64,000 nt of DNA, from NCBI RefSeq assembly GCF_014274685.1, contig NZ_CP060393.1, positions 3,345,501-3,409,500 on the forward strand. The letters run 5' to 3'. Within the stretch, counting starts at the first letter, position 1; each line of letters opens with the position of its first letter. The stretch comes from Edaphobacter sp. 4G125 (lineage in GTDB: Bacteria; Acidobacteriota; Terriglobia; Terriglobales; Acidobacteriaceae). The translations under genes were made by a program, and so were the position numbers. Under the pieces are notes generated by a model, which made no database searches, was not told the DNA's origin, and saw nothing but the letters and a program-made list of their open reading frames with translations. Below are positions 27,372 through 52,626 of the stretch, piece by piece.

Positions 27372-30300
27372 TTATTGCCCCGTTCCACTTAGCTGTATCC
27401 CGAACGTGGTTCCACCATTGCTAACCACGCCCAGAGTTGCACTACGAGCGCCTGTAGCATTCGGCCCGAATGTAACCGTCGCCGTACATCTCCCTCCAAC
27501 AGGGATTGGCGTCCCCACACATGTCCCTGCGTTCACGCTGAAATCGGCAGGAGTAGCCGATGAACTCGACATCGTAAAGCTCGAGATAGCCAAATCGGCT
27601 TCTCCTATGTTCGTAATCGTGAACGATTGCGCAGCCGATGTTTGATACAGTGCTTCCGTTCCGAAATTGATGGATGCGGGGGAAAACGTCGGAACCGGCA
27701 TCCCCCCTATTCCCAGAATCCCCCATTGAGCAGATTTTCCAGTAACAGAATCGACCACATTCACACTTGTATAAAACCTGCCAGTATTTGCTGGAGTCAC
27801 CTTGAGGCTCATCTGGCATGGAGTCTGCGAAACGCAATTGCCCGGATCGAAAACATACGTCTCCCCATTAGAGGCCGTAACCGTCGCGGTTACCGGATGT
27901 CCATTCGGAGCATTCACCGTCACTATCTGAGCCGTAGTACTCGTTCCGACCGGCACATTACCAACATTGATCGTCGACTGCGAAGCCGTGGGTGCGCTCA
28001 CACCAGCGCCAGCATTCCCATTCAAAGGGATGCTCTTCGAAATACCCGAAATCAAATCGACCAGCGTAAACTGCTCGTTCTTCGCACCCGTACTCTGGTC
28101 TACATCAAACGTGATCTGCAACCTACACGAACCTCCGACCGGAATGCTGTAGCCCTGATATCCAAGCGAACCTCCAATAGCAATTGGACCCCAGATCGGC
28201 GTGCTCGCGCACCCGCGCGAAGGCAACAGCTTTATCCCGTAGTTCCCCGTGTTCACTTGGCGTTGAATTAGCAGTGGGGCCGTTCCGGTATTTGCAACAG
28301 TGACCAGCCCCGCGTATCCCGGAACAATGCTGGAGAGAAAGTTGCTCTGGGTAAGAGTAAAATCCGCGCCATCACCACCGTCTCCGCCTATGCCATACAT
28401 CGGCACCGCTCCAAACTCGGTCTCAAGCATAGCCGTGCGTAAACCGGTTCCTTGTGGCGCAAACGTCAACGCGACACCGCACGATCCACCCGGCGGCGTA
28501 TAGCAATTCTCTATGTAAGAGAACTCACTGGCATTCGGCCCGCTAATACCCGAGATTTGAAATGGAATCGGCGGATCGTAGTAGCTTCCACCATACGAGA
28601 CCACCGTGCTCGATCCGGTACTCCCAACCGCAACAGCTCCAAAGGCTACTGGGCCATATTGGAAGCTGCTGCCATCCGAGGGAGAAGATGGAACTGAGAC
28701 CGGCAGCGTATACGGCGTCGAAGACGAGGTGGCATATACCATGACGTCTCCCTTGCTTCCATCCACCGAGATCGTGCAACTCGCCTGCCCTTGTAATACA
28801 TCCGGGCAATTCCCTGCTTCATAATTGATCGACCGGATCGTCGCCGGAGAGCTGCCGGAGTTCGTCAGTGTCACAGTTTGCGGAATACCGATCTCTCCAA
28901 TAAAGAGCCCTCCGGCAGGGGACAACACCAGCGGCCCACCTGAAGGTGCCACTCCTGTGCCAGTCAAGGGAACCGTCATCGTACGTCCCGAAGGCTGGCT
29001 TATCACCTCTAAAGCTCCTTTGTGTAAACCGACCTGTTGTGGCGAGAAGTAGACGTCGATCCGGCAACTCGCGCCGCCCTGCAACGCAAGGCATCGCTGG
29101 TTATTCTCCATCACAAAATCTCCCAGATACACAAGAGGGATGCCGTTCTCATCCAGAATTTGTATCGTGATATTTTGCGCATCCGTTCCACTGTTCGTGA
29201 TAGTCAGTCCCTGAGGATCAGTGGAGAAGCCAACCACCTCGGAAAACGACATAGATGAAGACGACACCGTAAATCCGGAAGGGCTTGTCGAAGGCGTCGC
29301 AGTTCCGCTCAAGGGAACCATTAGGGTTGTGTTCCCCTGCGAAATCTGCAACGCTGCACTCGCAGTGCCTTGAACAATCGGGCGAAATTGCACAGAGAAG
29401 GTACCACTCTGCCCCGGTCTGATATTGGCAGAGGGACCGCCGCTTATCACAAACGCTGCGGCATCTGGCCCCGTAATCGATAGGGACGAGGAGGAATAGC
29501 TCGAAGCGCTTCCATTATTTTTGATTGTGACAGACTGAGCGGAAGAGGTCGTGCCAACTGCGGTTTCGGGGAACGAGAGATACGTAGGAGACGCATCCAG
29601 AATGATCTGGCCTCCCGTTCCCTGTACCCACAATGTCCCGGTTTCGTGCGTGGTCTCATCCGTAATCACAAATGAGGTTGTTCTCAGTCCTAATGCCGAG
29701 GGCGTGAACTTAACCCGGATCGCACAGCCGCTTTCTCCTGGTCCGCAGCTTTGGAAGATAGCTGAAAAATCGCCATTTGCATTTCCTCCTGTAGGTGCAG
29801 CTGCACTGAAAGTATCTTGCGACAAGTAAATGACGCTTGAACTGGAACCATTCAACTCTACGGTGCCTATATCGAGTGGATTGACGGAAAACTGCAATAA
29901 TTCAAGATGAGACAGCGCTGTTTGCGTATAGCTTTTCACAGCGACTGCCCCTCGGACCGTATCCTTAGCCTGGAGCGATGCTGATTGCACACCAACCTGT
30001 GTCGGAGCAAATTTGACATACGTCTGGCAAGACCCACCAGGCTGTAACGTACTTGCGCAGGGATACTGTGAATCAATGCTGAAGACACTCGTATTCGTCG
30101 GAGGAATCAGCGACAGCGTAGGCGTTACCGGTTCCGTTCCATTATTAACAACTATTAACCCGACCTCTGCACTAGCTCCAATCCGCACCGGGTAATACGG
30201 GGTTGTAGGTGTGATGCTGATCGCAGGCCCCGCTGGCTGGCCACTTCCCGATAAAGCAATATCTCCATACTGCGTCTGTAGCGTTGCTATACGCGATCCT

Positions 30301-32174
30301 AGAGCCGTTGGAGTAAATATCACTTTGCACTGCCCTACCACAGAGGTGCAATCCACATTGAAGTCCTGCGGATTCGCTCCCGATAGCGTTCCAACAATTT
30401 GTATATTTTGTGGCGAACTCAACGTTACGGTCTGAGGAAGGCTCGGATAACCTCCAATCGGCCACGCCCCAAAATCAAGCGGTCTGCCATCGAACTGAAC
30501 CCCGCCCGGAGTCCCTTTGGTGACCCCCACCATTTGCTCCACAACATCTGTTCCCGCATGAGCCTCGACAGTCAGAAAATCGGGAATCGGGATGGAGCCA
30601 ATGTTAATGGTGTAGATCTGAACTGTAATCGTGCAGCTCGCTGCTGGAGCAATCGGAGCTTGAGTGCAGTTGTCGCTCTCAGCCCAACCGCTACTATCTG
30701 GAGATCCGGACACGGATAGATAGCCTGGCGTAATCACCAGATTGAACGCCTCACTGCCGGTATTCGTCACCGTAATCGTCTGCGGCGTTCCAATCTCCTC
30801 GAACGTCAGGGAGTCCGGCGTAAGCGTAAAGCTAAGCGCACCCGGAGTGGATACCTGACCTTGACCGCTCAGTGCAACGTGAATCAAGGCATTCGGAGCA
30901 TCGCTCACAATCTGCAGGTCCGCGCTCTTCTGCCCAGCGCTGGCCGGTGAAAACGTCACTGACATCGTGCAAGTCGCTCCCACTGCCAGTGGTGTCGTAG
31001 TGCTGCAGGGCAAGCTTACCGTGTTCATCACGCTGAACTCCGTCGCATTCGATCCCGCCAGAATCGGCTCAGAGATCTGAACTGCGGACGTTCCGTTATT
31101 GGTTAAAGTCAGGACCGTTGTGTTGCTGGAATTCACATACGTAGCAGGAAAGGAGACAGCCGCAGGCGAAACCGCCAGCCCCGAGGGAAAGGTCGTTGGC
31201 AGCGTGAAGCTCGCTGGAGCCGTGGTTAAAACCGGTTGAAAGGGAGCCGAAGACTGTATTAAACCAAAGAGCTGTCCAACACTCTGCGAAGGATTGTTCG
31301 CCAACAGAAGCGCCGCGCTCAGAACGTCATTCGGAGCGATACCACCCGCAGGAGCCGTCGCCTGAAAGAGCGTACCGCACGACGAACCATCCCCGGCAAT
31401 TCCTCCATTGGACTCGATACAGCTCGCAAGAATATCGGCCAACGTATTGATCTGCGCAGTCGGAAGCGTGGCGTCGCTGGGAGCAGTTGCGCCTGGTGTC
31501 GTCCCAGTTGCTGTATTGACCAACTGATTCGCCATCTTGAATGACGCCGTAAGTGCGGTGACATCATTGCTGCCGGCCCCAATGGCTGTCGCGCTCTGCA
31601 TATAAGGCGCCAGCGACCACACCGCTGCCACCGTCGTTACTTCATTGATGGTCACGTTCGTTGTCGGCGTAAGGCTACCGCACGGTCCCAGCGCCACCAT
31701 CATGCTGATCTGAGGATTAATCATCCCCGTTCCCGGATCTCCTCCGGTCGCCACCATGTATACCAATGCATCGGCGGTAGGACACGTATACGCTCCCGCA
31801 TAGTCGAACTTGCCCGATGCATCTGTCGTCAGTGGTGTGGCAAAAAGCGGCGTAGCCGCTGATCCATCACCCGTCGTCCCTACGGCATACATCTGAATCG
31901 ACGCTCCACTCACAGGCGTCGCTCCCCCTTGTACCAGCCCATACTTCACCGCAGGTGGAGGATTTGTGGGAGGCGGATTGCTCGGTGGTGGATTGGAGGG
32001 CGGAGGATTACTTGGCGGCGGGTTTGTTGGAGGTGGATTATTCGACGGCGGTTGCGTAGGCGGAGTCTGTGAAGAACTCTGTCCATTCGATCCACTGCAC
32101 CCGAAACAAGTAGTCAGAACACACACTACCGCAAACAGAGCACACGCTCTCAAAAGCCCATTAGCCCAACGCAT
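27372..32174 (-). CDS. giant secreted choice-of-anchor-D / HYDIN-like Ig-repeat protein
   Basis: 1600 residues from ATG 32174 (the in-frame TTG at 32186 is close to the AAGG). Hydrophobic signal, a Cys region (LTTCFGCSG; not a canonical lipobox), then a Pro/Asn linker of NPPPSNPPP units, a carboxypeptidase-regulatory-like segment (VQGGATPVSGASIQMYAVG), and a long series of ASPM-SPD-2-HYDIN-type Ig domains, each with a motif like TVTNTGS or VGTSTTAQIVTV and ending in a Gly-rich strand with LSGTG. About ten or more repeats. Likely cell-surface or extracellular adhesion or scaffold protein. Ligand unknown. Confidence 0.88.
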   Translation of the reverse strand: MRWANGLLRACALFAVVCVLTTCFGCSGSNGQSSSQTPPTQPPSNNPPPTNPPPSNPPPSNPPPSNPPPTNPPPAVKYGLVQGGATPVSGASIQMYAVGTTGDGSAATPLFATPLTTDASGKFDYAGAYTCPTADALVYMVATGGDPGTGMINPQISMMVALGPCGSLTPTTNVTINEVTTVAAVWSLAPYMQSATAIGAGSNDVTALTASFKMANQLVNTATGTTPGATAPSDATLPTAQINTLADILASCIESNGGIAGDGSSCGTLFQATAPAGGIAPNDVLSAALLLANNPSQSVGQLFGLIQSSAPFQPVLTTAPASFTLPTTFPSGLAVSPAAVSFPATYVNSSNTTVLTLTNNGTSAVQISEPILAGSNATEFSVMNTVSLPCSTTTPLAVGATCTMSVTFSPASAGQKSADLQIVSDAPNALIHVALSGQGQVSTPGALSFTLTPDSLTFEEIGTPQTITVTNTGSEAFNLVITPGYLSVSGSPDSSGWAESDNCTQAPIAPAASCTITVQIYTINIGSIPIPDFLTVEAHAGTDVVEQMVGVTKGTPGGVQFDGRPLDFGAWPIGGYPSLPQTVTLSSPQNIQIVGTLSGANPQDFNVDCTSVVGQCKVIFTPTALGSRIATLQTQYGDIALSGSGQPAGPAISITPTTPYYPVRIGASAEVGLIVVNNGTEPVTPTLSLIPPTNTSVFSIDSQYPCASTLQPGGSCQTYVKFAPTQVGVQSASLQAKDTVRGAVAVKSYTQTALSHLELLQFSVNPLDIGTVELNGSSSSVIYLSQDTFSAAAPTGGNANGDFSAIFQSCGPGESGCAIRVKFTPSALGLRTTSFVITDETTHETGTLWVQGTGGQIILDASPTYLSFPETAVGTTSSAQSVTIKNNGSASSYSSSSLSITGPDAAAFVISGGPSANIRPGQSGTFSVQFRPIVQGTASAALQISQGNTTLMVPLSGTATPSTSPSGFTVSSSSMSFSEVVGFSTDPQGLTITNSGTDAQNITIQILDENGIPLVYLGDFVMENNQRCLALQGGASCRIDVYFSPQQVGLHKGALEVISQPSGRTMTVPLTGTGVAPSGGPLVLSPAGGLFIGEIGIPQTVTLTNSGSSPATIRSINYEAGNCPDVLQGQASCTISVDGSKGDVMVYATSSSTPYTLPVSVPSSPSDGSSFQYGPVAFGAVAVGSTGSSTVVSYGGSYYDPPIPFQISGISGPNASEFSYIENCYTPPGGSCGVALTFAPQGTGLRTAMLETEFGAVPMYGIGGDGGDGADFTLTQSNFLSSIVPGYAGLVTVANTGTAPLLIQRQVNTGNYGIKLLPSRGCASTPIWGPIAIGGSLGYQGYSIPVGGSCRLQITFDVDQSTGAKNEQFTLVDLISGISKSIPLNGNAGAGVSAPTASQSTINVGNVPVGTSTTAQIVTVNAPNGHPVTATVTASNGETYVFDPGNCVSQTPCQMSLKVTPANTGRFYTSVNVVDSVTGKSAQWGILGIGGMPVPTFSPASINFGTEALYQTSAAQSFTITNIGEADLAISSFTMSSSSATPADFSVNAGTCVGTPIPVGGRCTATVTFGPNATGARSATLGVVSNGGTTFGIQLSGTGQ
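31951..32050. repeat. tandem degenerate triplet repeats coding a Pro-rich linker
   Basis: About 100 bp of GGA/GGC-GG-ATT units encode PPSNPPPTNPPP repeats of the Ig-protein linker. Repeat number is likely to vary between strains. Not a CRISPR. Confidence 0.75.
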
Positions 32175-32352
32175 CACGAAACCCAACCTTGTGTTTTTTC
32201 TGGGAGTCTTGAATTACATACGTTCTACGTCCAGGCAGTTTTAAAAGGCATCAATGCTGCAAAAAAATTCATCTTTATCAACGAATAACTACATATCACA
32301 ATCAAGATCCTGCCCGAAGATTAAAAATGGCCTTGTCAAGCCCGCCTTTTTC

Positions 32353-44068: not shown

Positions 44069-45310
44069 ATGAAGCGCGTTCGGTATACCAAATTCACCGG
44101 AGATCTCTCGTCCAGCTTCGATCTTGAAGACCTGATGCAGGCCCTCTCCGATTTTCTGCTCGACTCCGGCTTCAACGACCCCTACTCCAACTTCAGCGAG
44201 TTCAACGACCAAACGCTGGAGAATTTGCGTGAGGCCATTCGTCAGGCCCTTGAATCCGGTGAACTCTTCGACGAAGAAGCACAGGAAAAGTTCGAATCGC
44301 TCAGCGGAGATCAGATCGAAGAGTTAATCGACAAGATTATCCAGAAGATGCAGGAGCAAAACCTTATCAATGCCGAGATGCCTCAGCAGGGTCAGGGTGA
44401 GTTCGGACAAGCCAACGAGAATGCCCGTTTCGAGGTCACCGATAAGGGCATGGACTTTCTTGGCTACAAGGCCCTTCGCGATCTTCTTGGCCCTCTCGGA
44501 AAATCCAATCTAGGCCGTCACGATACCCGCCACGAAGCTTCCGGGGTAGAGATCAACGGTTCTTCCAAACTTTACGAATTCGGGGACTCGCTCAATCTCG
44601 ACATCACTGCAACCTTTTCGAGCGTCTTTTCACGTGAAGGGATCCGCACCGCAGTCGAAGGAGAAGAACACACTCCACTCAACATTGAGTACTCCGATCT
44701 GCACGTTCATCAGTCGGACTATCAATCCTCCTGCGCAACCGTTGTCTTGCTCGACTGCTCGCATTCCATGATTCTCTACGGCGAAGACCGCTTCACCCCG
44801 GCTAAGCGCGTGGCGATGGCGCTCTCTCACCTCATTCGTACCCAATTCCCCGGCGACACTTTAAATCTTGTTCTTTTCCATGACACCGCCGAAGAGATTC
44901 CCGTTTCCCAGCTCTCGCGCGTCAAGGTTGGCCCGCACTACACCAATACCAAGGACGGCCTGCGTCTGGCGCAGCGTATTCTCGCTCGACAGAACAAAGA
45001 TATGAAGCAGATCGTGATGATTACCGATGGCAAGCCCTCGGCTCTTACGCTGGCCGACGGACGAATCTATAAGAACGCCTTCGGACTCGATCCGCTGGTC
45101 ATCGAAGAAACTCTGGAAGAAGTTTCGCGCTGTAAACGCTCCGGCATCATGATTAATACCTTCATGCTGGCCAACGACTTTACCTTGATGCAGTTCGTTC
45201 AACAGGTAAGCTCCATGTGCCGCGGCAAGGCCTACTTCACCACCCCTCAGACTCTCGGCAACTACCTGCTCATGGATTTCATGTCCCGCCGCATGAAGAC
45301 GGTGCACTAG
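44069..45310 (+). CDS. VWA-domain protein, partner of the AAA ATPase
   Basis: 413 residues, AGGGG upstream. A helical, acidic N-terminal half (residues 1-200) is followed by a cytoplasmic VWA domain with the MIDAS motif DCSHS (about residue 230) and ITDGKPSAL. No signal peptide, which differs from the secreted VWA protein at 2285. The arrangement AAA then VWA is that of MoxR-VWA and ChlI-ChlD pairs, in which the VWA protein contacts substrate and the ATPase drives release. Target unknown. Confidence 0.88.
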
Positions 45311-45404: not shown

Positions 45405-45537
45405 TTCCCGAAGCGCCAATGCTCTCAACAATAGAGCAATATTTCACAAAAGAGCTGGAACCCTTCTTCTATCCTTTCCGTATATTTCTGCGTCATACAT
45501 GCCAGCGCATCGGCTTCGTATGCGTAAAAGGAGTTCC

Positions 45538-46314
45538 ATGACACCCCAGGAACAACAGATGCTTCAAGGTCTGATCCAACGCGTCAACCAGACCCAGCTT
45601 CAGGAAAAAGACTTTGACGCTGAAGAGATGTTGCAACAGACGCTTGGGAAAAATCCCGATGCTCTTTACATCCTCGCTCAAACCGTACTCGTGCAGCAGT
45701 ATGCACTCGATCAGGCACAGAGCCAGCTTGATCAGCTTCGCCAGCAGCAGCCTCAGCGCTCGAGTAGTTTTCTCGGTAACCTTCTAGGGCGCAATGAAGA
45801 GCCTGCCCGTCCCGCTCCTCCGCCACCACCTCCACCGCCGCAATATGCTCAGCCACAGTACGTCCCTGCCCCCGGCTACGCTGTAGGTTATGGAGCGCCA
45901 CAATCTGGCGGATTTCTCCGCGGAGCCATGCAGACTGCAGCTGGAGTAGCTGCAGGCGCTCTCGCCTTCGAGAGTATTGAGGGCTTGATGCACGGCTTCG
46001 GACACGCCGCAGGTTATGGACCAGGTTTCGGTAGCTTCGGCGATTCCGATCGCCCCGAGATCATCAACAACTACTACGGAGACGGTAACGAACGCGATCA
46101 CGAAAACCATCTCTCGCCGGATATTGAAGACCGCAGAGGCGAGTCCGCATTTTCACACGCAGTCGACTCCAATGATCATGGAAATAATTTCATGGACAGC
46201 GGTGACGACAACTCCGGCAGCTACGACGATGACACATCGTCCTTCGACGACAGCTCCGATTTTAGTGACGATGGTGGCGGCTTCGATTCGGGCGGCGACG
46301 ACAACAGCTTCTAA
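45538..46314 (+). CDS. DUF2076-like protein
   Basis: 258 residues from ATG 45538 (AAAAGGAG upstream). The N-terminal MTPQEQQMLQGLIQRVNQTQLQEKD matches DUF2076. A central PPPPPPPP stretch and a Tyr/Pro/Gly-rich section precede GGFLRGAMQTAAGVAAGALAFESIEGLMHGFGHAAG, an Ala/Gly-rich hydrophobic segment, and a very acidic Asp/Ser tail (DDDTSSFDDSSDFSDDGGGFDSGG). Similar proteins are described as periplasmic ligand-binding or sensor-like, but no signal peptide is evident. The stop overlaps the AsmA-like gene stop on the opposite strand. Confidence 0.75.
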   Translation: MTPQEQQMLQGLIQRVNQTQLQEKDFDAEEMLQQTLGKNPDALYILAQTVLVQQYALDQAQSQLDQLRQQQPQRSSSFLGNLLGRNEEPARPAPPPPPPPPQYAQPQYVPAPGYAVGYGAPQSGGFLRGAMQTAAGVAAGALAFESIEGLMHGFGHAAGYGPGFGSFGDSDRPEIINNYYGDGNERDHENHLSPDIEDRRGESAFSHAVDSNDHGNNFMDSGDDNSGSYDDDTSSFDDSSDFSDDGGGFDSGGDDNSF

Positions 46315-47936
46315 TCGCTATCTGGCGACTTATCCTTGTGCTTCAGATCGAGGCCAAACTTAGGTGCTCCGCGGGAGCCGCTGATCTTGATCGGGATCTC
46401 CGCTCCTGCACCATGCTTCTTGAAAAACGGATCGACAGGCTTCAGCAGCCACGACTTCCACCATGTCGCCACCATGTTCGATAGTGCGGCTTTTGTCCTT
46501 ACATTCCCACTAAAGTCCAAATCGCTGCCATTTAACGAATACACCCCTGCCAGATTCACATCTGCTCCAGGCAAGCTATAGGACAATTCGTGGAAACGTA
46601 AACTTCCATTTCCCATAACGAACTGTCCGTTCATCAGCGAGCTTACGTCTTCCGCCCCCGGCTTTGCCTCTTTTGGTTGGCCGCGTGCACGCAGACTCAG
46701 CATATCCACCTTGTCCTGCCACTCCGGATTTGTAAAGTGAATCGCACGTAATTGAAATGCTCCGCGAAGTCCCATCCTTTCGATCACCCGTTCATCGCCA
46801 GGTCGAATATGCAGCTTTGTCTTCATTGACAGTCTTCCAGACATCAGAACCGGATGTTGTTTCACCGCCAGCTCTAGAAAATCCTGAATCCTGCCATTCG
46901 GGACATTCGCATCGATATCGATGATGTGTCCCTTCCCTTTCACATTGATGATCGCGCCTGTACAAGTGAAATTCGACTCCCCCAACCTCGCGTTCACCGG
47001 CTGTAGGTAGGTGTCTCCGCTTGTCCCATCCACGATCGCATGAAATTTTGTGTGCAGTAGTACAGGATGATTTGCAGTATCGAGGGAAAAATCAGGAGTC
47101 TCCGTGGTCCCGTCCACCACAATGCGGTTCAATTGACCATTGAACTCTCCAACAGAAGAAAGGATGCCTCCAATTCCCTTGATCGTGCCGAGATCAGCAT
47201 GGTCGAACGTATATTTTCCGGTTACGCTCGAATCCCCCGGACTCTCATTCACCCACGGTCCAAACGTCCCCACTGCATGAATATCTCCCGTTGGGATTGC
47301 ATTCACAAGTGTCGCATCATATCGCCAGGGATCATTTGGCCCGACGTTATGCATCACGATATGCTGCAGATCGAATTCTTTGGGGTCCTTATCCGGTTTT
47401 GCTGTCTGAATAATTAACTTCGACCCATCACAATCAATTTCGTCCACAATAATTTTGATCTTTCCCAGGTGACGATCCTTTTTAGAAGCCTGCTGCCTCA
47501 TCTCCTTAGGGGGAATGCTAATCGTCATCCCTTGGACCTGAACCGTTCCAATACGCATTGGCTTCAAAAATAGCCCCGTTACGTTTGCACGAAAGGCAAA
47601 ATGCTTTAGAGCAATCAGGGGGGCACTTGCACCCGCTGCCACGACATCATCGGGTGGATAGATACGAAGCCCATCTCCGGAAACCTCTAGGCCTTTTAAT
47701 ACGGAGACATGAAACCCCTCCATTTCCACCCGGCTATCGAAACGTGTGCTGAGAGTCTCAACAATCCTTCCTCGTAGAATCGGCTCTGCTCGATACATCA
47801 TCCATTCCACAGTGGCAGCCACAGCAATAATCAAAAGCAGTGCAGAAATTGCAATCCATCCCCAAAACCCTCGTTTTTTAGGGGGACGAGAAGCAGGTAG
47901 ATTCAAATCTGTATCTCTCTTAAGATCGTTCACCAT
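46311..47936 (-). CDS. AsmA-like inner-membrane protein
   Basis: 541 residues from ATG 47936. A cytoplasmic N-terminus, one membrane helix (GWIAISALLLIIAVAATVEWMMY, about 24-46), then a long periplasmic beta-rich region with LKGLEVSGDGLRIY and the C-terminal AEIPIKISGSRGAPKFGLDLKHK, typical of AsmA/TamB-like proteins thought to move phospholipid between membranes. The start lacks a clear Shine-Dalgarno. Divergent from the bufferin operon across 153 bp. Confidence 0.83.
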   Translation of the reverse strand: MVNDLKRDTDLNLPASRPPKKRGFWGWIAISALLLIIAVAATVEWMMYRAEPILRGRIVETLSTRFDSRVEMEGFHVSVLKGLEVSGDGLRIYPPDDVVAAGASAPLIALKHFAFRANVTGLFLKPMRIGTVQVQGMTISIPPKEMRQQASKKDRHLGKIKIIVDEIDCDGSKLIIQTAKPDKDPKEFDLQHIVMHNVGPNDPWRYDATLVNAIPTGDIHAVGTFGPWVNESPGDSSVTGKYTFDHADLGTIKGIGGILSSVGEFNGQLNRIVVDGTTETPDFSLDTANHPVLLHTKFHAIVDGTSGDTYLQPVNARLGESNFTCTGAIINVKGKGHIIDIDANVPNGRIQDFLELAVKQHPVLMSGRLSMKTKLHIRPGDERVIERMGLRGAFQLRAIHFTNPEWQDKVDMLSLRARGQPKEAKPGAEDVSSLMNGQFVMGNGSLRFHELSYSLPGADVNLAGVYSLNGSDLDFSGNVRTKAALSNMVATWWKSWLLKPVDPFFKKHGAGAEIPIKISGSRGAPKFGLDLKHKDKSPDSD

Positions 47937-48015
47937 CAGTTGGATGCACACTTTCTTGGGTGCGTTCCGCGTTTCTTCAACGACAAAAACCGCGACAAAT
48001 TCTCTGCAAAAAACT

Positions 48016-48043
48016 GTTACCCTTCTTCACGCTTCGTATCTAA
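48016..48043 (+). promoter_or_regulatory. ECF-sigma-like promoter upstream of the bufferin operon
   Basis: TGTTACCC at about 48015-48022 and TCTAA at 48039-48043, spacer of about 16, resembling ECF promoters (AAC-type -35, TCTAA-type -10). Expected start near 48050, 5'UTR about 40 bases. It may be used by the sigma factor encoded at 50709. Inference from position and composition only. Confidence 0.4.
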
Positions 48044-48089
48044 CGGGGCAGATGGGAAGCAGCTTGCCCATCCAATTCAAGGAGAATCT

Positions 48090-48374
48090 ATGAAGAATTC
48101 TTTTAAAGCAATGATGTTGAGCGCAGCTGTGACTGGACTGCTTAGTGGTTCCGCCACTCCCATTCATGCTTCCAGCCTCCACAATGGCGCGCAGCTCGGG
48201 CAAGCCGCGCTCGCATCCTCCTCCATGATGGCGCAGGATACAGACAAGCACTCCTGTAAAGGCAAAAACGACTGTAAGGGCAAAGGCGGTTGCAAAACCA
48301 GCGATAACGGTTGCAAAGGCAAGAACAGCTGCAAAGGTAAAGGCGGCTGCGCTACCGACGGTTCCAAGAAGTAG
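48090..48374 (+). CDS. bufferin/HvfA-type RiPP metallophore precursor
   Basis: 94 residues, with AAGGAG before the ATG. A Sec signal peptide (SFKAMMLSAAVTGLLSGSA) ends near IHA-SS. The mature part is Ala/Ser-rich, then contains six Cys at residues 56, 62, 68, 75, 81 and 87 in two CKGKN(D/S)CKGKGGC units joined by KTSDNG. The spacing 6, 6, 7, 6, 6 shows a clean duplication. In known systems the DUF692 enzyme converts Cys to oxazolone/thioamide or thiooxazole groups that bind copper. The peptide is expected in the periplasm. Followed by a structured 79-base gap. Confidence 0.88.
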   Translation: MKNSFKAMMLSAAVTGLLSGSATPIHASSLHNGAQLGQAALASSSMMAQDTDKHSCKGKNDCKGKGGCKTSDNGCKGKNSCKGKGGCATDGSKK

Positions 48375-48388
48375 CAAACGAACTAATC

Positions 48389-48451
48389 GCTGTATCGCCG
48401 CGAATGATCCACCTCTCGGCGATACAGCTTCTACTCCAAAAGGGCGATACA
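48389..48451 (+). promoter_or_regulatory. hairpin and competing arm before the maturase gene
   Basis: GCTGTATCGCCG (48389-48400) pairs with CGGCGATACAGC (48417-48428), 12 bp, loop of 16. GGCGATACA recurs at 48443-48451, overlapping the AGGG ribosome site before ATG 48454. The left arm can pair with either copy, so two mutually exclusive folds are possible: one leaves the ribosome site free, the other covers it. Confidence 0.6.
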
Positions 48452-48453
48452 AG

Positions 48454-49317
48454 ATGCCAGCAAACCGATTCAACGCATTCACAGACTACGGAGTTGGAAT
48501 TGGTCTCCGCGTTCCACACTACCGGCACATTCTCGAGAAGAAACCCGTCGTCGATTGGTTTGAAATCATCTCTGAAAATTACATGGTCGATGCTGGCCGT
48601 CCACTCTCCGTTCTCGATAGCATTCTTGAACAGTATCGGGTCGTGCAGCATGGCGTCTCCATGTACTTCGGCTCAGCCGAGCCTCTCTCGCGCGAGCATC
48701 TACGCAGAATAAAAGCGCTCGTCCGTCGCACGAAAACTCCCTGGCTCTCCGACCATCTCTGCTGGGGCTCCGTCGACGGCACTTATACGCATGATCTGCT
48801 GCCCATGCCTTACACCTTTGAGGCCGCCCGTGTCACCGCCGAAAAAATTCGCCAGGCACAGGACTTCCTCGAAGTTCCTATCGCCGTCGAAAACGTCTCC
48901 AGTTACGCCGAGTTCCACGTCTCCGAGATGACCGAGTGGGAGTTTCTCAACGAGGTCGTCGAGCAAGCCGACTGCGGCATTCTTCTCGACGTCAACAACA
49001 TCTACGTCTCCTCGCAGAACCACGGCTTCGATCCGCGCACGTACGTTGAATCCATCCCCGCCCACCGCGTTGCGCAGATTCATATCGCCGGCCACTCGAA
49101 GTTTGAGAAATACATCCTCGACACTCACGATCATCCTGTCCTTGATCCTGTATGGTCGCTCTACGCTCGCGCTATTGAACGATGCGGGCCCACCGCCACC
49201 CTGCTTGAGTGGGACGACCACATCCCCTCCTTCGACGAGGTCCACACCGAAGCCCTCAAAGCGAATCGCTATCTCAATCCGCAATCGACGCAGGAACCCC
49301 TGGCGGTGACCGCATGA
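48454..49317 (+). CDS. DUF692 / MNIO family RiPP maturase (BufB/HvfB-type)
   Basis: 287 residues. Family motifs: GIGLRVPHY, FEIISENYM, HGVSMYFGS, SDHLCWGS, VENVSSY, LLDVNNIYVSSQNHGF, IAGH, DTHDHPV and LLEWDDH, which supply the His, Asp and Glu ligands of the two or three non-heme iron ions. Such enzymes oxidatively modify Cys residues in precursor peptides. No signal peptide, so cytoplasmic action before export. AGGG lies 9 bases upstream; ATGA overlap with the next gene. Confidence 0.93.
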   Translation: MPANRFNAFTDYGVGIGLRVPHYRHILEKKPVVDWFEIISENYMVDAGRPLSVLDSILEQYRVVQHGVSMYFGSAEPLSREHLRRIKALVRRTKTPWLSDHLCWGSVDGTYTHDLLPMPYTFEAARVTAEKIRQAQDFLEVPIAVENVSSYAEFHVSEMTEWEFLNEVVEQADCGILLDVNNIYVSSQNHGFDPRTYVESIPAHRVAQIHIAGHSKFEKYILDTHDHPVLDPVWSLYARAIERCGPTATLLEWDDHIPSFDEVHTEALKANRYLNPQSTQEPLAVTA

Positions 49318-50213
49318 ACGCTCCCAGTCTTTATTCCCTCCAAAAGCGAATGGCCGCTGCCGTCATGCGCCCGCTCACGCGCAATGAGCAAATGCGTCGG
49401 CGGGACGAAAACAATCGTCCGATTGCAGACGAAGCAGATTCGTTCATCAAGCCAAATGATCGGCTCTCATCTTTCGAACGACTCGAGATCTACAACCGCC
49501 AATATTGGTTCCGGTTGTTCTCTTCCTTCGAGGAAGACTTTCCCGGCCTCAAATCTATCGTTGGAGCACGCCGCTTCGAACGTCTGATGCGCGATTACCT
49601 TAATACACATCCCTCTCGCTCGTTCACCCTGCGCAACCTCGGCTCTTCGCTCGTCCCCTGGCTTCGTGAAAATCCGCAGTACACCCAGCCCGAGACAGAC
49701 ACCTCTGTCGCAATGGCTGCGCTTGAATGGGCGCACATTGAAGCCTTCGACAACGAACAGCGATCGCCACTTACAGCAGAAGAGATCGCCTCGCTCACCG
49801 AAGCCTCACACCTCGCGCTTCAGCCTTATCTCCAGCTTGTAGATGCTCCCAGTGCTATCGATGATGCTTTGCTCGCCGTCCGAGACGCATCAATGGGCGC
49901 CTCCGCACAGGCATCTAACGCCGTCGGCATTCACCTCGTTCGCCGCACTCGCTCTCGCAAACCTGCTCCCGAACAGATCTACCTGGCCATTCATCGTCAC
50001 GAAAACTCCGTCTACTACAAGCGTCTTCAACGCGAAGACTATCTTCTGCTCCAGGCCATTCGACGAAACGCATCACTCGGTGAGGCCATCGAGGCCGCAT
50101 TCACTGAAAGTTCTATCCCTGAAGCCGACCGTCCCGCATATATCCAATCAATCTTTCAATACCTCATGCAGATGGGATGGCTCTGCATTCCACGCATAAC
50201 GGAGGAACGATGA
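49314..50213 (+). CDS. DUF2063 family partner protein (BufC/HvfC-type)
   Basis: 299 residues from ATG 49314, overlapping the previous stop by ATGA. The N-terminus LYSLQKRMAAAVMRPLTRNEQMRRRD is followed by RLEIYNRQYWFRLFSSFEEDFPGLKSIVGARRFERLMRDYLNTHPSRSFTLRNLGSSLVPWL, a DUF2063 block. Known partners of MNIO enzymes; believed to present the precursor peptide. Second half less conserved and carries RRTRSRKPAPEQIYLAIHRHEN. Confidence 0.9.
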   Translation: MNAPSLYSLQKRMAAAVMRPLTRNEQMRRRDENNRPIADEADSFIKPNDRLSSFERLEIYNRQYWFRLFSSFEEDFPGLKSIVGARRFERLMRDYLNTHPSRSFTLRNLGSSLVPWLRENPQYTQPETDTSVAMAALEWAHIEAFDNEQRSPLTAEEIASLTEASHLALQPYLQLVDAPSAIDDALLAVRDASMGASAQASNAVGIHLVRRTRSRKPAPEQIYLAIHRHENSVYYKRLQREDYLLLQAIRRNASLGEAIEAAFTESSIPEADRPAYIQSIFQYLMQMGWLCIPRITEER

Positions 50214-50719
50214 AAGCTCTCACTCGCGCTGCCTCCGTTCACGGAGCACTCTGCAATATCGCTCAAAAGCTCGTCTCTCCCTTTCTCCTTGCAGTCCGGC
50301 TCTACTGGGGATGGCAGTTCTTTCAAACCGGCCTCGGCAAGCTCCGCAACCAGGCAAGAGTGGTCGACTTCTTCACCTCGCTCAACATTCCCTTTCCTGC
50401 CATCAATGCTCATTTTGTCTCTGGCCTCGAATTCTTCGGCGGCATCCTGCTCGTACTAGGCCTCTTCTCGCGCCCCGTCTCACTTCTTCTCACCGGCTCG
50501 ATGTTTATTGCCTACTGGACTGCCGACCACGACGCGCTGGTCTCTATCTTTTCCAACCCCGGAAAGTTCTACGGAGCCGATCCCTACACCTTTCTCTTTG
50601 CCGCGCTGATGATCCTTATCTTCGGTCCTGGAAGATTTTCTCTTGACGCGCTCATTGCCACGAGGTTCCACTCATATATGAACTCGCCACGTTGGGGAAC
50701 GGATACCGTTGTCAGCTGA
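50210..50719 (+). CDS. DoxX family membrane protein (HvfD-type)
   Basis: 169 residues from ATG 50210 (GGAGGAACG upstream), overlapping the previous gene by ATGA. Four hydrophobic segments: LVSPFLLAVRLYWGWQFFQTGLGKL, FVSGLEFFGGILLVLGLF, VSLLLTGSMFIAYWTAD and FLFAALMILIFGPG. DoxX proteins are small membrane redox or export partners; in bufferin operons they are common companions. Their reaction is not defined. Confidence 0.9.
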   Translation: MKALTRAASVHGALCNIAQKLVSPFLLAVRLYWGWQFFQTGLGKLRNQARVVDFFTSLNIPFPAINAHFVSGLEFFGGILLVLGLFSRPVSLLLTGSMFIAYWTADHDALVSIFSNPGKFYGADPYTFLFAALMILIFGPGRFSLDALIATRFHSYMNSPRWGTDTVVS

Positions 50720-51323
50720 ACCACGAAATGAAGCGGCTATGATCGCGAAGATTCTGACGGGACAAACCGAGATCTTCCATGAGCTGATTCGCCCCTACGA
50801 GCGCAGTGTCTACCTGATGGCGCTCTCCCTGCTGCACAACGAAGCCGAAGCAGAAGATGCCGCCCAGGATGCCTTCCTCAAGGCATATCGGAATCTGGGT
50901 AGTTTCCGCTCCGAATCCCGTCTCAGCACCTGGCTCATCGCAATTGTCCTCAATGAAGCCCGCGCCCGTCTGCGCCGTAAACAACCTACCCTTACCGATT
51001 CCATCGACGACGATTCCGAAGGCGCCATTACACCCGCACAGCTTACCGACTGGCGCGAGATCCCCTCAGACTCCCTCGCGCGTCAGGAGATTCGCAATCT
51101 TATTCGTCAGGCAGTGTCCGCACTCCCCCTGCCCTACCGCGAAGTCTTCGTCCTCCGGGAGATCGAAGAGCGCAATGTACAGGAGACTGCCGAAACCCTC
51201 GGCATCACCACAGCATCCGTTAAGATGAGGCTTCACCGCGCTCGCATGATGCTGCAGAAGCAGCTTGCGCCACAGCTCAAATCGGCCGTGCCGTCCAGCC
51301 GAAGGAGGTTCCCATGGTTCTGA
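50709..51323 (+). CDS. ECF RNA polymerase sigma factor
   Basis: 204 residues if it starts at TTG 50709, overlapping doxX by 11 bases; ATG 50739 is an alternative. Region 2: IRPYERSVYLMALSLLHNEAEAEDAAQDAFLKAYRNLGSFRSESRLSTWLIAIVLNEARA. Region 4: LPLPYREVFVLREIEERNVQETAETLGITTASVKMRLHRARMML. No region 3, so ECF type. Its place inside the bufferin operon suggests auto-control, probably induced by metal or envelope stress. Promoter target could be 48016-48043. Confidence 0.92.
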   Translation: MSAEPRNEAAMIAKILTGQTEIFHELIRPYERSVYLMALSLLHNEAEAEDAAQDAFLKAYRNLGSFRSESRLSTWLIAIVLNEARARLRRKQPTLTDSIDDDSEGAITPAQLTDWREIPSDSLARQEIRNLIRQAVSALPLPYREVFVLREIEERNVQETAETLGITTASVKMRLHRARMMLQKQLAPQLKSAVPSSRRRFPWF

Positions 51324-51580
51324 ACTGCCGCCATGTCTGGGACTATATCTCCGGCTATCTCGACAACACGCTCGATGCCCAGACCCGTACTGACGTCGAA
51401 AAACATCTCGAACATTGCGAGATCTGCTCCGCTGTCCTCGATTCGACACGCAATATCCTCATCCTCACCGCAGACGATCGTGTCTTCGAGCTTCCAGTCG
51501 GCTTTAGCGAGCGGTTACACGCGCGCCTCGCTCAGGCCATGCTCGAAATCCCTCCGGACGAGCCCGAGTCGTCCGCTTGA
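51314..51580 (+). CDS. zinc-finger anti-sigma factor (ZAS type)
   Basis: 88 residues, overlapping the sigma gene by 10 bases. N-terminal ZAS domain with CRHVWDYISGYLDNTL and the HLEHCEIC motif (HxxxCxxC), the zinc site that binds ECF sigma factors. No transmembrane segment, so a cytoplasmic anti-sigma that may sense redox or metal directly by its Cys/His zinc site. The pair forms the regulatory end of the bufferin operon. Confidence 0.9.
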   Translation: MVLNCRHVWDYISGYLDNTLDAQTRTDVEKHLEHCEICSAVLDSTRNILILTADDRVFELPVGFSERLHARLAQAMLEIPPDEPESSA

Positions 51581-51616
51581 ACACGGTAGGAGAATCTCGA
51601 TATCTGGACACAACGT

Positions 51617-52063
51617 CTATAGGAAATGCCGCAGGATGGAATGCTCTCCATGAGCCATCCACTCGGCTGCGAGCAAAAACAATGTCACAATCGCCAATGT
51701 TACCTGCAAGCGCTCCGAGCGCAATTTGGCGCCCGAGACCGGCTGCACTCTCCACTGCGCCGCTGGACGCGCACGCAGCGATCGTACACGCCACACGGAG
51801 TACAGATTAAACAACGCGCCGCCCAGCGCGAAGATCATCATTGGGATACGAATGGCGTCCCCGTGAAACCACTGGGCAGATCCATAAAATCCGCTTGCCA
51901 GCGCGCCTAGACCAATCAACGTCCTGAAGCCGCTGACTGCCATGAATGCGGCACATCCGCTTTGCAGCAAAGCGAATAGAAAACTACCAGTATTCGTCCA
52001 ACGCAGTTTGCCTCGCTCAGCTTCAACAGCATCAGACTGCTTCTGAAGTATTTCGTCGCTCAT
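51617..52063 (-). CDS. small membrane protein of unknown function
   Basis: 148 residues, four hydrophobic segments (SFLFALLQSGCAAFMAVSGF, LIGLGALASGFYGSAQ, IPMMIFALGGALFNLYSV, LQVTLAIVTLFLLAAEW). No recognised family. Its ATG overlaps the nudix gene stop by ATGA, so it is cotranscribed with the nudix gene. Confidence 0.75.
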   Translation of the reverse strand: MSDEILQKQSDAVEAERGKLRWTNTGSFLFALLQSGCAAFMAVSGFRTLIGLGALASGFYGSAQWFHGDAIRIPMMIFALGGALFNLYSVWRVRSLRARPAAQWRVQPVSGAKLRSERLQVTLAIVTLFLLAAEWMAHGEHSILRHFL

Positions 52064-52626
52064 TCTTCCCTCGCCGGTCGGCCATGATCAAGCCATACCT
52101 TATACAGACCCCATGCCGCGATGGAGCTGTTATCGACGATCTCTCCGTCCAGCACCATGCGCTCAAACTCCTGCACGCTCACACGTTTCAAAACGAGATC
52201 ATGCTCTTCCACATCAGGATCAGCCTTACCCTGCGTCAATCCCTCAGCCAGATAGACATAGTGTTTCTGATTCATCACCCCGTAAGCAATCTGGAGCGTT
52301 CCCAGCAGAGTCATCCGTTTCGCTTCGAGCCCAGTCTCCTCCCGAAGCTCTCCACGGGCCAATTGCTCAGGAATTATCTCTGCCTGCTCCCACCCGCCTT
52401 GAGGAAACTCCGCAAACCTCCCTTGTACCGTGTAACGAAACTGTTCGATCAGGTAGACAAACTCACCTTCCTGCGTTTTTTCCAGCGGAATGATGACAGA
52501 TCCGGGATCCTTGTCAATCACGCCATAAATGCCTCGCTGTCCGTTAGCACGCTCAATCACATCCTCCCGCACGCGCGTCCACGGATTGCGATAAACCTCT
52601 CGGCTGCTGATCGTCTTGATGCTCAA
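52060..52626 (-). CDS. Nudix hydrolase (ADP-ribose pyrophosphatase-like)
   Basis: 188 residues from TTG 52626 with AGGAG 6 bases upstream. Nudix box GGWEQAEIIPEQLARGELREETG, with the Glu metal ligands. N-terminal VYRNPWTRVREDVIERANGQRGIYGVIDKDPGSVIIPL is typical of ADP-ribose or nucleoside diphosphate sugar hydrolases. The substrate is not proven. Downstream of the CocE gene by 13 bases and coupled to the membrane protein. Confidence 0.88.
   Translation of the reverse strand: MSIKTISSREVYRNPWTRVREDVIERANGQRGIYGVIDKDPGSVIIPLEKTQEGEFVYLIEQFRYTVQGRFAEFPQGGWEQAEIIPEQLARGELREETGLEAKRMTLLGTLQIAYGVMNQKHYVYLAEGLTQGKADPDVEEHDLVLKRVSVQEFERMVLDGEIVDNSSIAAWGLYKVWLDHGRPAREE

Follow-up and report, generated by a model that had tools for sequence, protein, structure and literature searches.

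A bufferin-type operon of Edaphobacter with an integral ECF sigma factor and ZAS anti-sigma factor: a probably autoregulated variant of known systems

Sigma-controlled MNIO clusters and the Edaphobacter operon

Bufferins (captophorins) are peptides marked by Cys-derived thiooxazoles and by copper binding. The characterised members chelate copper and let cells grow better under copper stress, and the available text of a 2025 survey of their gene clusters reports sigma/anti-sigma genes in Buf1 clusters and not in Buf2 clusters (PMC12452194). Here we describe a six-gene bufferin-type operon in Edaphobacter sp. 4G125, located in a 64,000-nucleotide (nt) stretch of contig NZ_CP060393.1 (positions 3,345,501 to 3,409,500; this whole stretch is the window, and its numbering is used below unless a genome position is named), in which a Buf2-type precursor gene is joined to genes for an extracytoplasmic function (ECF) sigma factor and a zinc-binding anti-sigma (ZAS) factor. 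We conclude that this is probably a self-contained, autoregulated bufferin (captophorin) operon.

Sigma control of related clusters is documented in three other settings. In Neisseria, the rpoE operon (NMB2140-NMB2145 / NGO1948-NGO1943) encodes a DoxX-like protein, RpoE and a ZAS protein, and has a very small regulon; experiments have shown that it regulates itself (PMC2893595). The gonococcal protein NGO1945 (PME1; structure 3DEE, PMC2954202) is the gonophorin cluster's partner protein (PMC13097082), and the latter paper also refers to co-occurring transcriptional regulators in a supplementary table. Caulobacter SigF drives the DUF2282-DUF692-DUF2063-DoxX genes CC3254-CC3257 from a GTAACC-N16-CGAA promoter, with the DUF1109 protein CC3252 as anti-sigma factor (PMC3511200). 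The Haemophilus influenzae sigma factor RpoE2, paired with the ZAS-type anti-sigma factor HrsE, controls doxX-MNIO genes and responds to HOCl and H2O2 (PMC7907618).

Profile searches against Pfam and NCBIfam bore out all six genes in the positions and order that a reading of the letters alone (the sequence-only reading) had given them, and the family matches support its assignment of a bufferin-type operon for a ribosomally synthesized and post-translationally modified peptide (RiPP). All lie on the + strand: bufA (48090..48374) encodes a secreted 6-Cys RiPP precursor of 94 aa, BufA2-type by profile (NF050166, E 4.6e-10) and Cys spacing; bufB (48454..49317) the MNIO (DUF692) maturase, a BufB member at 354.5 bits against the NF050167 cut-off of 310 (PF05114, 364.9 bits); bufC (49314..50213) the DUF2063 partner of PME type 1 (PF09836, 56.8 bits, cut-off 27.2; 51.3 bits against HvfC NF050145, below its cut-off of 142); the fourth gene (50210..50719) a DoxX membrane protein (PF07681, 67.6 bits, cut-off 23.6; 65.5 bits against HvfX NF050144, below its cut-off of 80); the fifth (50709..51323, with a presumed TTG start) the ECF sigma factor, with Sigma70_r2 and Sigma70_r4_2 both above cut-off and a consistent tree placement; and the sixth (51314..51580) a soluble ZAS anti-sigma factor (zf-HC2, 43.8 bits, cut-off 22.2; C5, H31, C35, C38). 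With the chosen starts the genes after bufB overlap by 4, 4, 11 and 10 nt, matching the 4-11 bases read at the outset; the DUF2063 and DoxX starts are choices because the open frames extend back to 49209 and 50177. The domain matches and overlapping gene chain support the reading that the sigma/anti-sigma pair is integral to the operon. The earlier extent of 48016-51580 was right for the genes but began one base inside the promoter-like element at 48015-48044 and missed both the hairpin and the convergent membrane-protein gene described below. PF05114 matches the whole genome (4,254,614 bases, one contig) once, at this bufB, whose closest named relative is from Edaphobacter modestus (93%; the source genome's own record was possibly excluded), which agrees with the acidobacterial host guessed from the letters; other close named relatives are from Edaphobacter and further Acidobacteriaceae.

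The operon shares with Buf2 clusters the secreted 6-Cys precursor, the bufABC order and DoxX, but those clusters were surveyed without sigma genes, whereas here the ECF and ZAS genes stand in the overlapping chain (PMC12452194); as the precursor belongs to the Buf2 type and the survey's available text reports no sigma genes for that type, we regard the Edaphobacter cluster as a variant. With the Neisseria rpoE operon it has in common DoxX, the DUF2063 partner, the ECF/ZAS pair, the spacing of the ZAS ligands and, as predicted here, autoregulation and a very small regulon (PMC2893595). The Neisseria system differs in its phylum, in its additional control of msrAB (PMC2893595) and in its precursor, which is not Buf2 and, from its grouping with oxazolin, appears to be of EGKCG/HvfA type. 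The Caulobacter -35 element GTAACC is similar to TGTAACC, the form seen in relatives of the Edaphobacter operon, but that system has a DUF1109 anti-sigma factor, a separate sigF operon, several targets and a -10 element CGAA rather than TCTAA (PMC3511200). H. influenzae shares an ECF factor and small cytoplasmic ZAS acting over a DoxX-MNIO cluster, but its sigma gene lies outside the cluster and msrAB and other genes are among the targets (PMC7907618). An embedded sigma/anti-sigma pair, proposed in the sequence-only reading as the novelty, is therefore already known from Neisseria (ECF with soluble ZAS, PMC2893595; MNIO link, PMC13097082) and, with a DUF1109 partner, from Caulobacter (PMC3511200), whereas its association with a Buf2-type precursor holds up as new. 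A search of open-licence literature by title and abstract returned no paper describing a Buf2 cluster with sigma factor and ZAS. What is new here is thus a Buf2-type precursor in another taxon under a known logic, one exact promoter match and a neighbour protein not previously recognised.

A predicted promoter and its linkage to the sigma factor

Upstream of bufA lies a predicted ECF-type promoter of the operon, TGTTACC-N17-TCTAAC (48015..48044, +). The 4.25 Mb genome contains a single copy of the pattern TGTWAC-N18-TCTAA, at 48015-48043, and four of the pattern read backwards; a longer pattern with one mismatch allowed gives 3 sites against 16 backwards, one of the 3 at genome position 3931084, and TGTWACY-N17-TCNAA gives 3 against 13, the two besides that at bufA falling inside long open reading frames (ORFs). 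A wider regulon built on such loose sites was rejected on account of these two. One loose match lies in a 1604-aa ORF (27372-32186, -) whose repeats look Ig-like or choice-anchor-like by eye.

Conservation among relatives ties the promoter to the anti-sigma gene. The distance between the two boxes is nearly fixed, and in a non-redundant set (161 of 176 loci after near-identical ones were dropped) a looser two-box pattern stands before bufA in 44 of the 45 loci linked to ZAS vs 15 of the 63 unlinked ones (Fisher p 4e-16, for loci that come from related genomes and so are not independent); three loci that end upstream of bufA (L137, L168 and L171) were left out of the latter count. The TGTWACY box alone is found in 41/45 and 11/63, respectively, and seven of the 15 unlinked loci with the pattern are genus loci whose genome has the sigma factor elsewhere. 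In a separate count by gene, which left out short upstreams, the pattern stood before bufA in 45/46 linked loci and before the first gene of sigma units in 56/61, and was rare upstream of internal genes (mnio 0/45, duf2063 1/45, zas 1/62); where doxX runs opposite to bufA in ZAS-linked loci, it also preceded 21 of 22 such doxX genes. Shuffles in a promoter comparison among relatives and in that of spacer stems below were simple and not strictly dinucleotide-preserving. In two loci (L048, L066) doxX is divergent from bufA with sigma-ZAS still behind bufC, and the ECF-type motif precedes both doxX and bufA, giving two promoters in one genome.

The sigma factor itself tracks the bufferin genes. 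Across 60 genomes from the genus, 39 had BufB (PF05114, E <= 1e-105) and 44 a sigma orthologue (E <= 2e-60, a threshold chosen after a gap from 1.8e-60 to 1.6e-50 had been seen); 38 of the 39 genomes with BufB had the orthologue, the exception being 74% complete (G019), in a cross-count tallied by hand that includes incomplete genomes. The placement of doxX-sigma-ZAS varies, being within the bufABC operon, divergent, otherwise placed or elsewhere, and the linkage is retained in co-directional, divergent and further arrangements. In a sigma tree from which rows below 150 aa or 38% identity were left out, the window's sigma factor falls in one group with 11 further co-operonic rows (support 100/98), and the five arrangement labels require 19 changes. 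A phylum sample of 297 genomes had BufB over cut-off in 42, of which the 30 not covered by the other comparisons supplied 31 loci. The window's own family contributed 6 of these loci, and 5 of the 6 had sigma factor and ZAS close to BufB; the 25 loci outside it, some on short contigs, gave no ZAS match. The promoter pattern was upstream in those 5 loci and in 0/26 of the others. Together, the promoter site and its conservation support as probable the auto-activation that had been proposed for the integral pair.

Two observations concern sigma genes in other settings. In one locus (L060) about 1.8 kb, absent from the window operon, separates doxX from the sigma gene. In L081 and L084, sigma/ZAS copies that lie apart from bufferin genes adjoin a divergent protein with VELFTSEGCSSCPP, presumably DUF1223-like, a neighbour that suggests a broader role for the sigma family, involving thiols or metals.

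The ligands C5, H31, C35 and C38 of the anti-sigma factor are invariant in all 24 alignment rows; the protein has the Hx3Cx2C signature of ZAS proteins with a Cys placed 26 residues ahead of the His, and no hydrophobic segment was found in it. No Pfam family other than zf-HC2 matches it up to E 0.1, and it is not of the DUF1109 type represented by Caulobacter CC3252, which we take to be NrsF. It scores 32.8 bits against the RsrA equivalog TIGR03988, below the cut-off of 62.5, and we therefore call it RsrA-like and not RsrA. A family profile searched against the PDB matched RsiW (E 8e-4); a single-sequence search there gave no match, and the predicted model was too poor to serve as a search query (mean pLDDT 59.4). 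The same ligand spacing occurs in meningococcal NMB2145 (C4, H30, C34, C37) and in RsrA (C11, H37, C41, C44) (PMC2893595).

Proposed mechanism, its signal and rival explanations

We propose that in the unstressed cell the soluble ZAS would keep the ECF sigma factor bound, and that copper, zinc or a thiol oxidant would disturb its Cys/His zinc site and free the sigma factor, which would then recognise the 48015-48044 element as its own promoter and transcribe the whole operon from this single site. The products would be an excess of Cys-rich precursor, BufB and BufC, DoxX, and further sigma factor and ZAS. BufB and BufC would turn the precursor Cys into copper-binding heterocycles, a chemistry we infer for BufA, while the added sigma factor and then the added ZAS would provide positive and then negative feedback; the mature peptide would be exported and would buffer periplasmic copper. 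Copper is put forward as both signal and function by likeness to the characterised bufferins.

The signal might instead be oxidants (HOCl, peroxide or disulfide stress), with the peptide acting as a thiol buffer or oxidant sink. This alternative is compatible with the operon model, and we hold it to be a genuine possibility without favouring it: the RsrA-like ligand spacing of the ZAS speaks for it, as does H. influenzae RpoE2, which with its ZAS-type anti-sigma factor answers HOCl and H2O2 and drives doxX-MNIO genes (PMC7907618), but characterised bufferins chelate copper and aid growth under copper stress (PMC12452194), and oxidants left meningococcal sigma-E expression unchanged (PMC2893595), a result with which the citation of H2O2 as an inducer in Neisseria (PMC7907618) is at odds.

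A further candidate part lies beyond the ZAS gene, where a convergent gene (51617..52063, -) encodes a 148-aa membrane protein with two hydrophobic peaks. Counting neighbours up to about 5 kb on each side (25/96 ZAS-less loci had less than 3.5 kb on one side), we found this gene in 57/63 non-redundant loci with ZAS vs 0/98 without, and convergent within 700 nt in 49/63 ZAS loci; it also stands beside sigma/ZAS copies without nearby bufferin genes, sometimes in other orientations. Cys37, His67 and His138 are invariant in an alignment of 21 rows. A Pfam/NCBIfam search of the window protein gave no match, and relatives gave scattered weak hits only; identification of the fold was given up after a Foldseek search with the predicted model (pLDDT 80.5, pTM 0.56) returned no match at E <= 0.001. 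We tentatively suggest, while regarding it as doubtful, that this protein is a third regulatory part that would act as a membrane sensor of metal or redox state, signalling to the otherwise cytosolic ZAS to free the sigma factor, in a three-part sensor now controlling bufferin operons in several arrangements. That it is instead an unrelated neighbour retained by synteny is a somewhat stronger possibility, which fits its position on the opposite strand and the presence of the motif upstream of only 3/57 copies, a count that also led us to reject it as a regulon member; its confinement to ZAS loci, and its company with sigma/ZAS even where bufferin genes are lacking and the orientation differs, argue against mere retention.

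It is quite improbable that sigma/ZAS is a general envelope-stress regulator merely located at the end of an operon driven mainly by other means, as might be read from the sigma/ZAS copies away from bufA in the genus and from the bufABC sets without this sigma factor common in other families, since the sole exact promoter match in the genome sits upstream of bufA, the pattern stands before bufA in 45 of the 46 linked loci, and a scan for sigma-70-type sites over 47900-52200 gave a single one, at 51863, and none before bufA.

Several points weigh against a dedicated, autoregulated bufferin operon. The sigma orthologue is present in 6/21 genus genomes without BufB, so its family is not dedicated, and 20/66 sigma rows had no bufA in the fetched stretch, some of them on short contigs. 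The genome site counts alone (1, 3 and 3 real vs 4, 16 and 13 backwards) are not above chance, and the case for the promoter therefore rests on the position of the site and its conservation, for which the looser pattern was defined after sites had been seen. In a prediction test on 26 further genomes, the sigma orthologue was found in 3/7 with the motif vs 1/19 without, this one being L137, whose locus ends upstream of bufA; the test weakly supports the link between promoter and sigma factor. BufA scores 39.5 bits against NF050166, below the curated cut-off of 60, and we therefore name it 'BufA2-type' and not a curated BufA2 member. The unchanged meningococcal sigma-E expression, cited above, likewise counts against oxidant release of the sigma factor. 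Autoregulation of the operon appears well supported by comparison with its relatives.

Intercistronic hairpin, precursor and meaning

The 79-nt spacer between bufA and bufB is predicted to form a strong RNA hairpin (48389..48428, +; minimum free energy -24.8 kcal/mol, z -4.19, with 0/200 shuffles as good). Among 105 distinct bufA-bufB spacers of 30-200 nt, 98 have a stem of at least 9 pairs, compared with an average of 7.4 pairs in shuffled spacers, and in 81 at most 1/40 shuffles attains the real stem; stem sequences vary between loci while the structure is kept. The hairpin after bufA probably favours precursor mRNA over maturase mRNA. In L113 a T run closes it, as in a terminator.

BufA carries its six Cys in CKGKNDCKGKGGCKTSDNGCKGKNSCKGKGGC behind an N-terminus judged signal-like by eye, and its gene directly precedes those of the MNIO and DUF2063 proteins, as expected of BufA2; 25 of the 26 proteins in a BufA-type alignment match NF050166 at E <= 0.001 (best 2.7e-13). 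The sequence-only reading had seen in the doubled 6-Cys array a distinctive variant, and a lack of relatives with conserved Cys spacing would have counted against its account. Such relatives exist: among 77 distinct BufA proteins (60-150 aa) adjoining the best 80 named BufB relatives, 51 share the 5-5-6-5-5 spacing of the window protein, and arrays of this kind occur in Acidobacteriota and Verrucomicrobiota. Because of this shared spacing, and because published Buf2 precursors carry 6 Cys in 90% of cases and 12 otherwise (PMC12452194), the array is ordinary, and we rejected it as a special feature. What is unusual instead is a 4-Cys form, found in 13 of the same 77 proteins; 31/101 of a wider set have 3-4 Cys. 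In the 4-Cys form the two middle Cys are absent together (C-x5-C-x10 to 15-C-x5-C), and its loci, including L118, L124, L054 and others of Edaphobacter and Granulicella, often have doxX-sigma-ZAS divergent. The idea that this lineage lacks a promoter at bufA was rejected: the strict pattern found none, but a looser -10 element gave sites further upstream.

Upstream of the operon, a DUF2076 protein gene (45499-46314, +; PF09849, 202 bits) adjoins one for a VWA-domain protein (44069-45310).

In this family of bacteria, sigma control, which is reported to be absent from Buf2 clusters, has become attached to them. With one sigma factor, one exact promoter match and one operon, the Edaphobacter locus offers a clean test case, in which the conserved membrane protein and the RNA hairpin are identified as candidate parts of the system, and the naturally occurring 4-Cys precursor lineage could help to show which pair of Cys is required.

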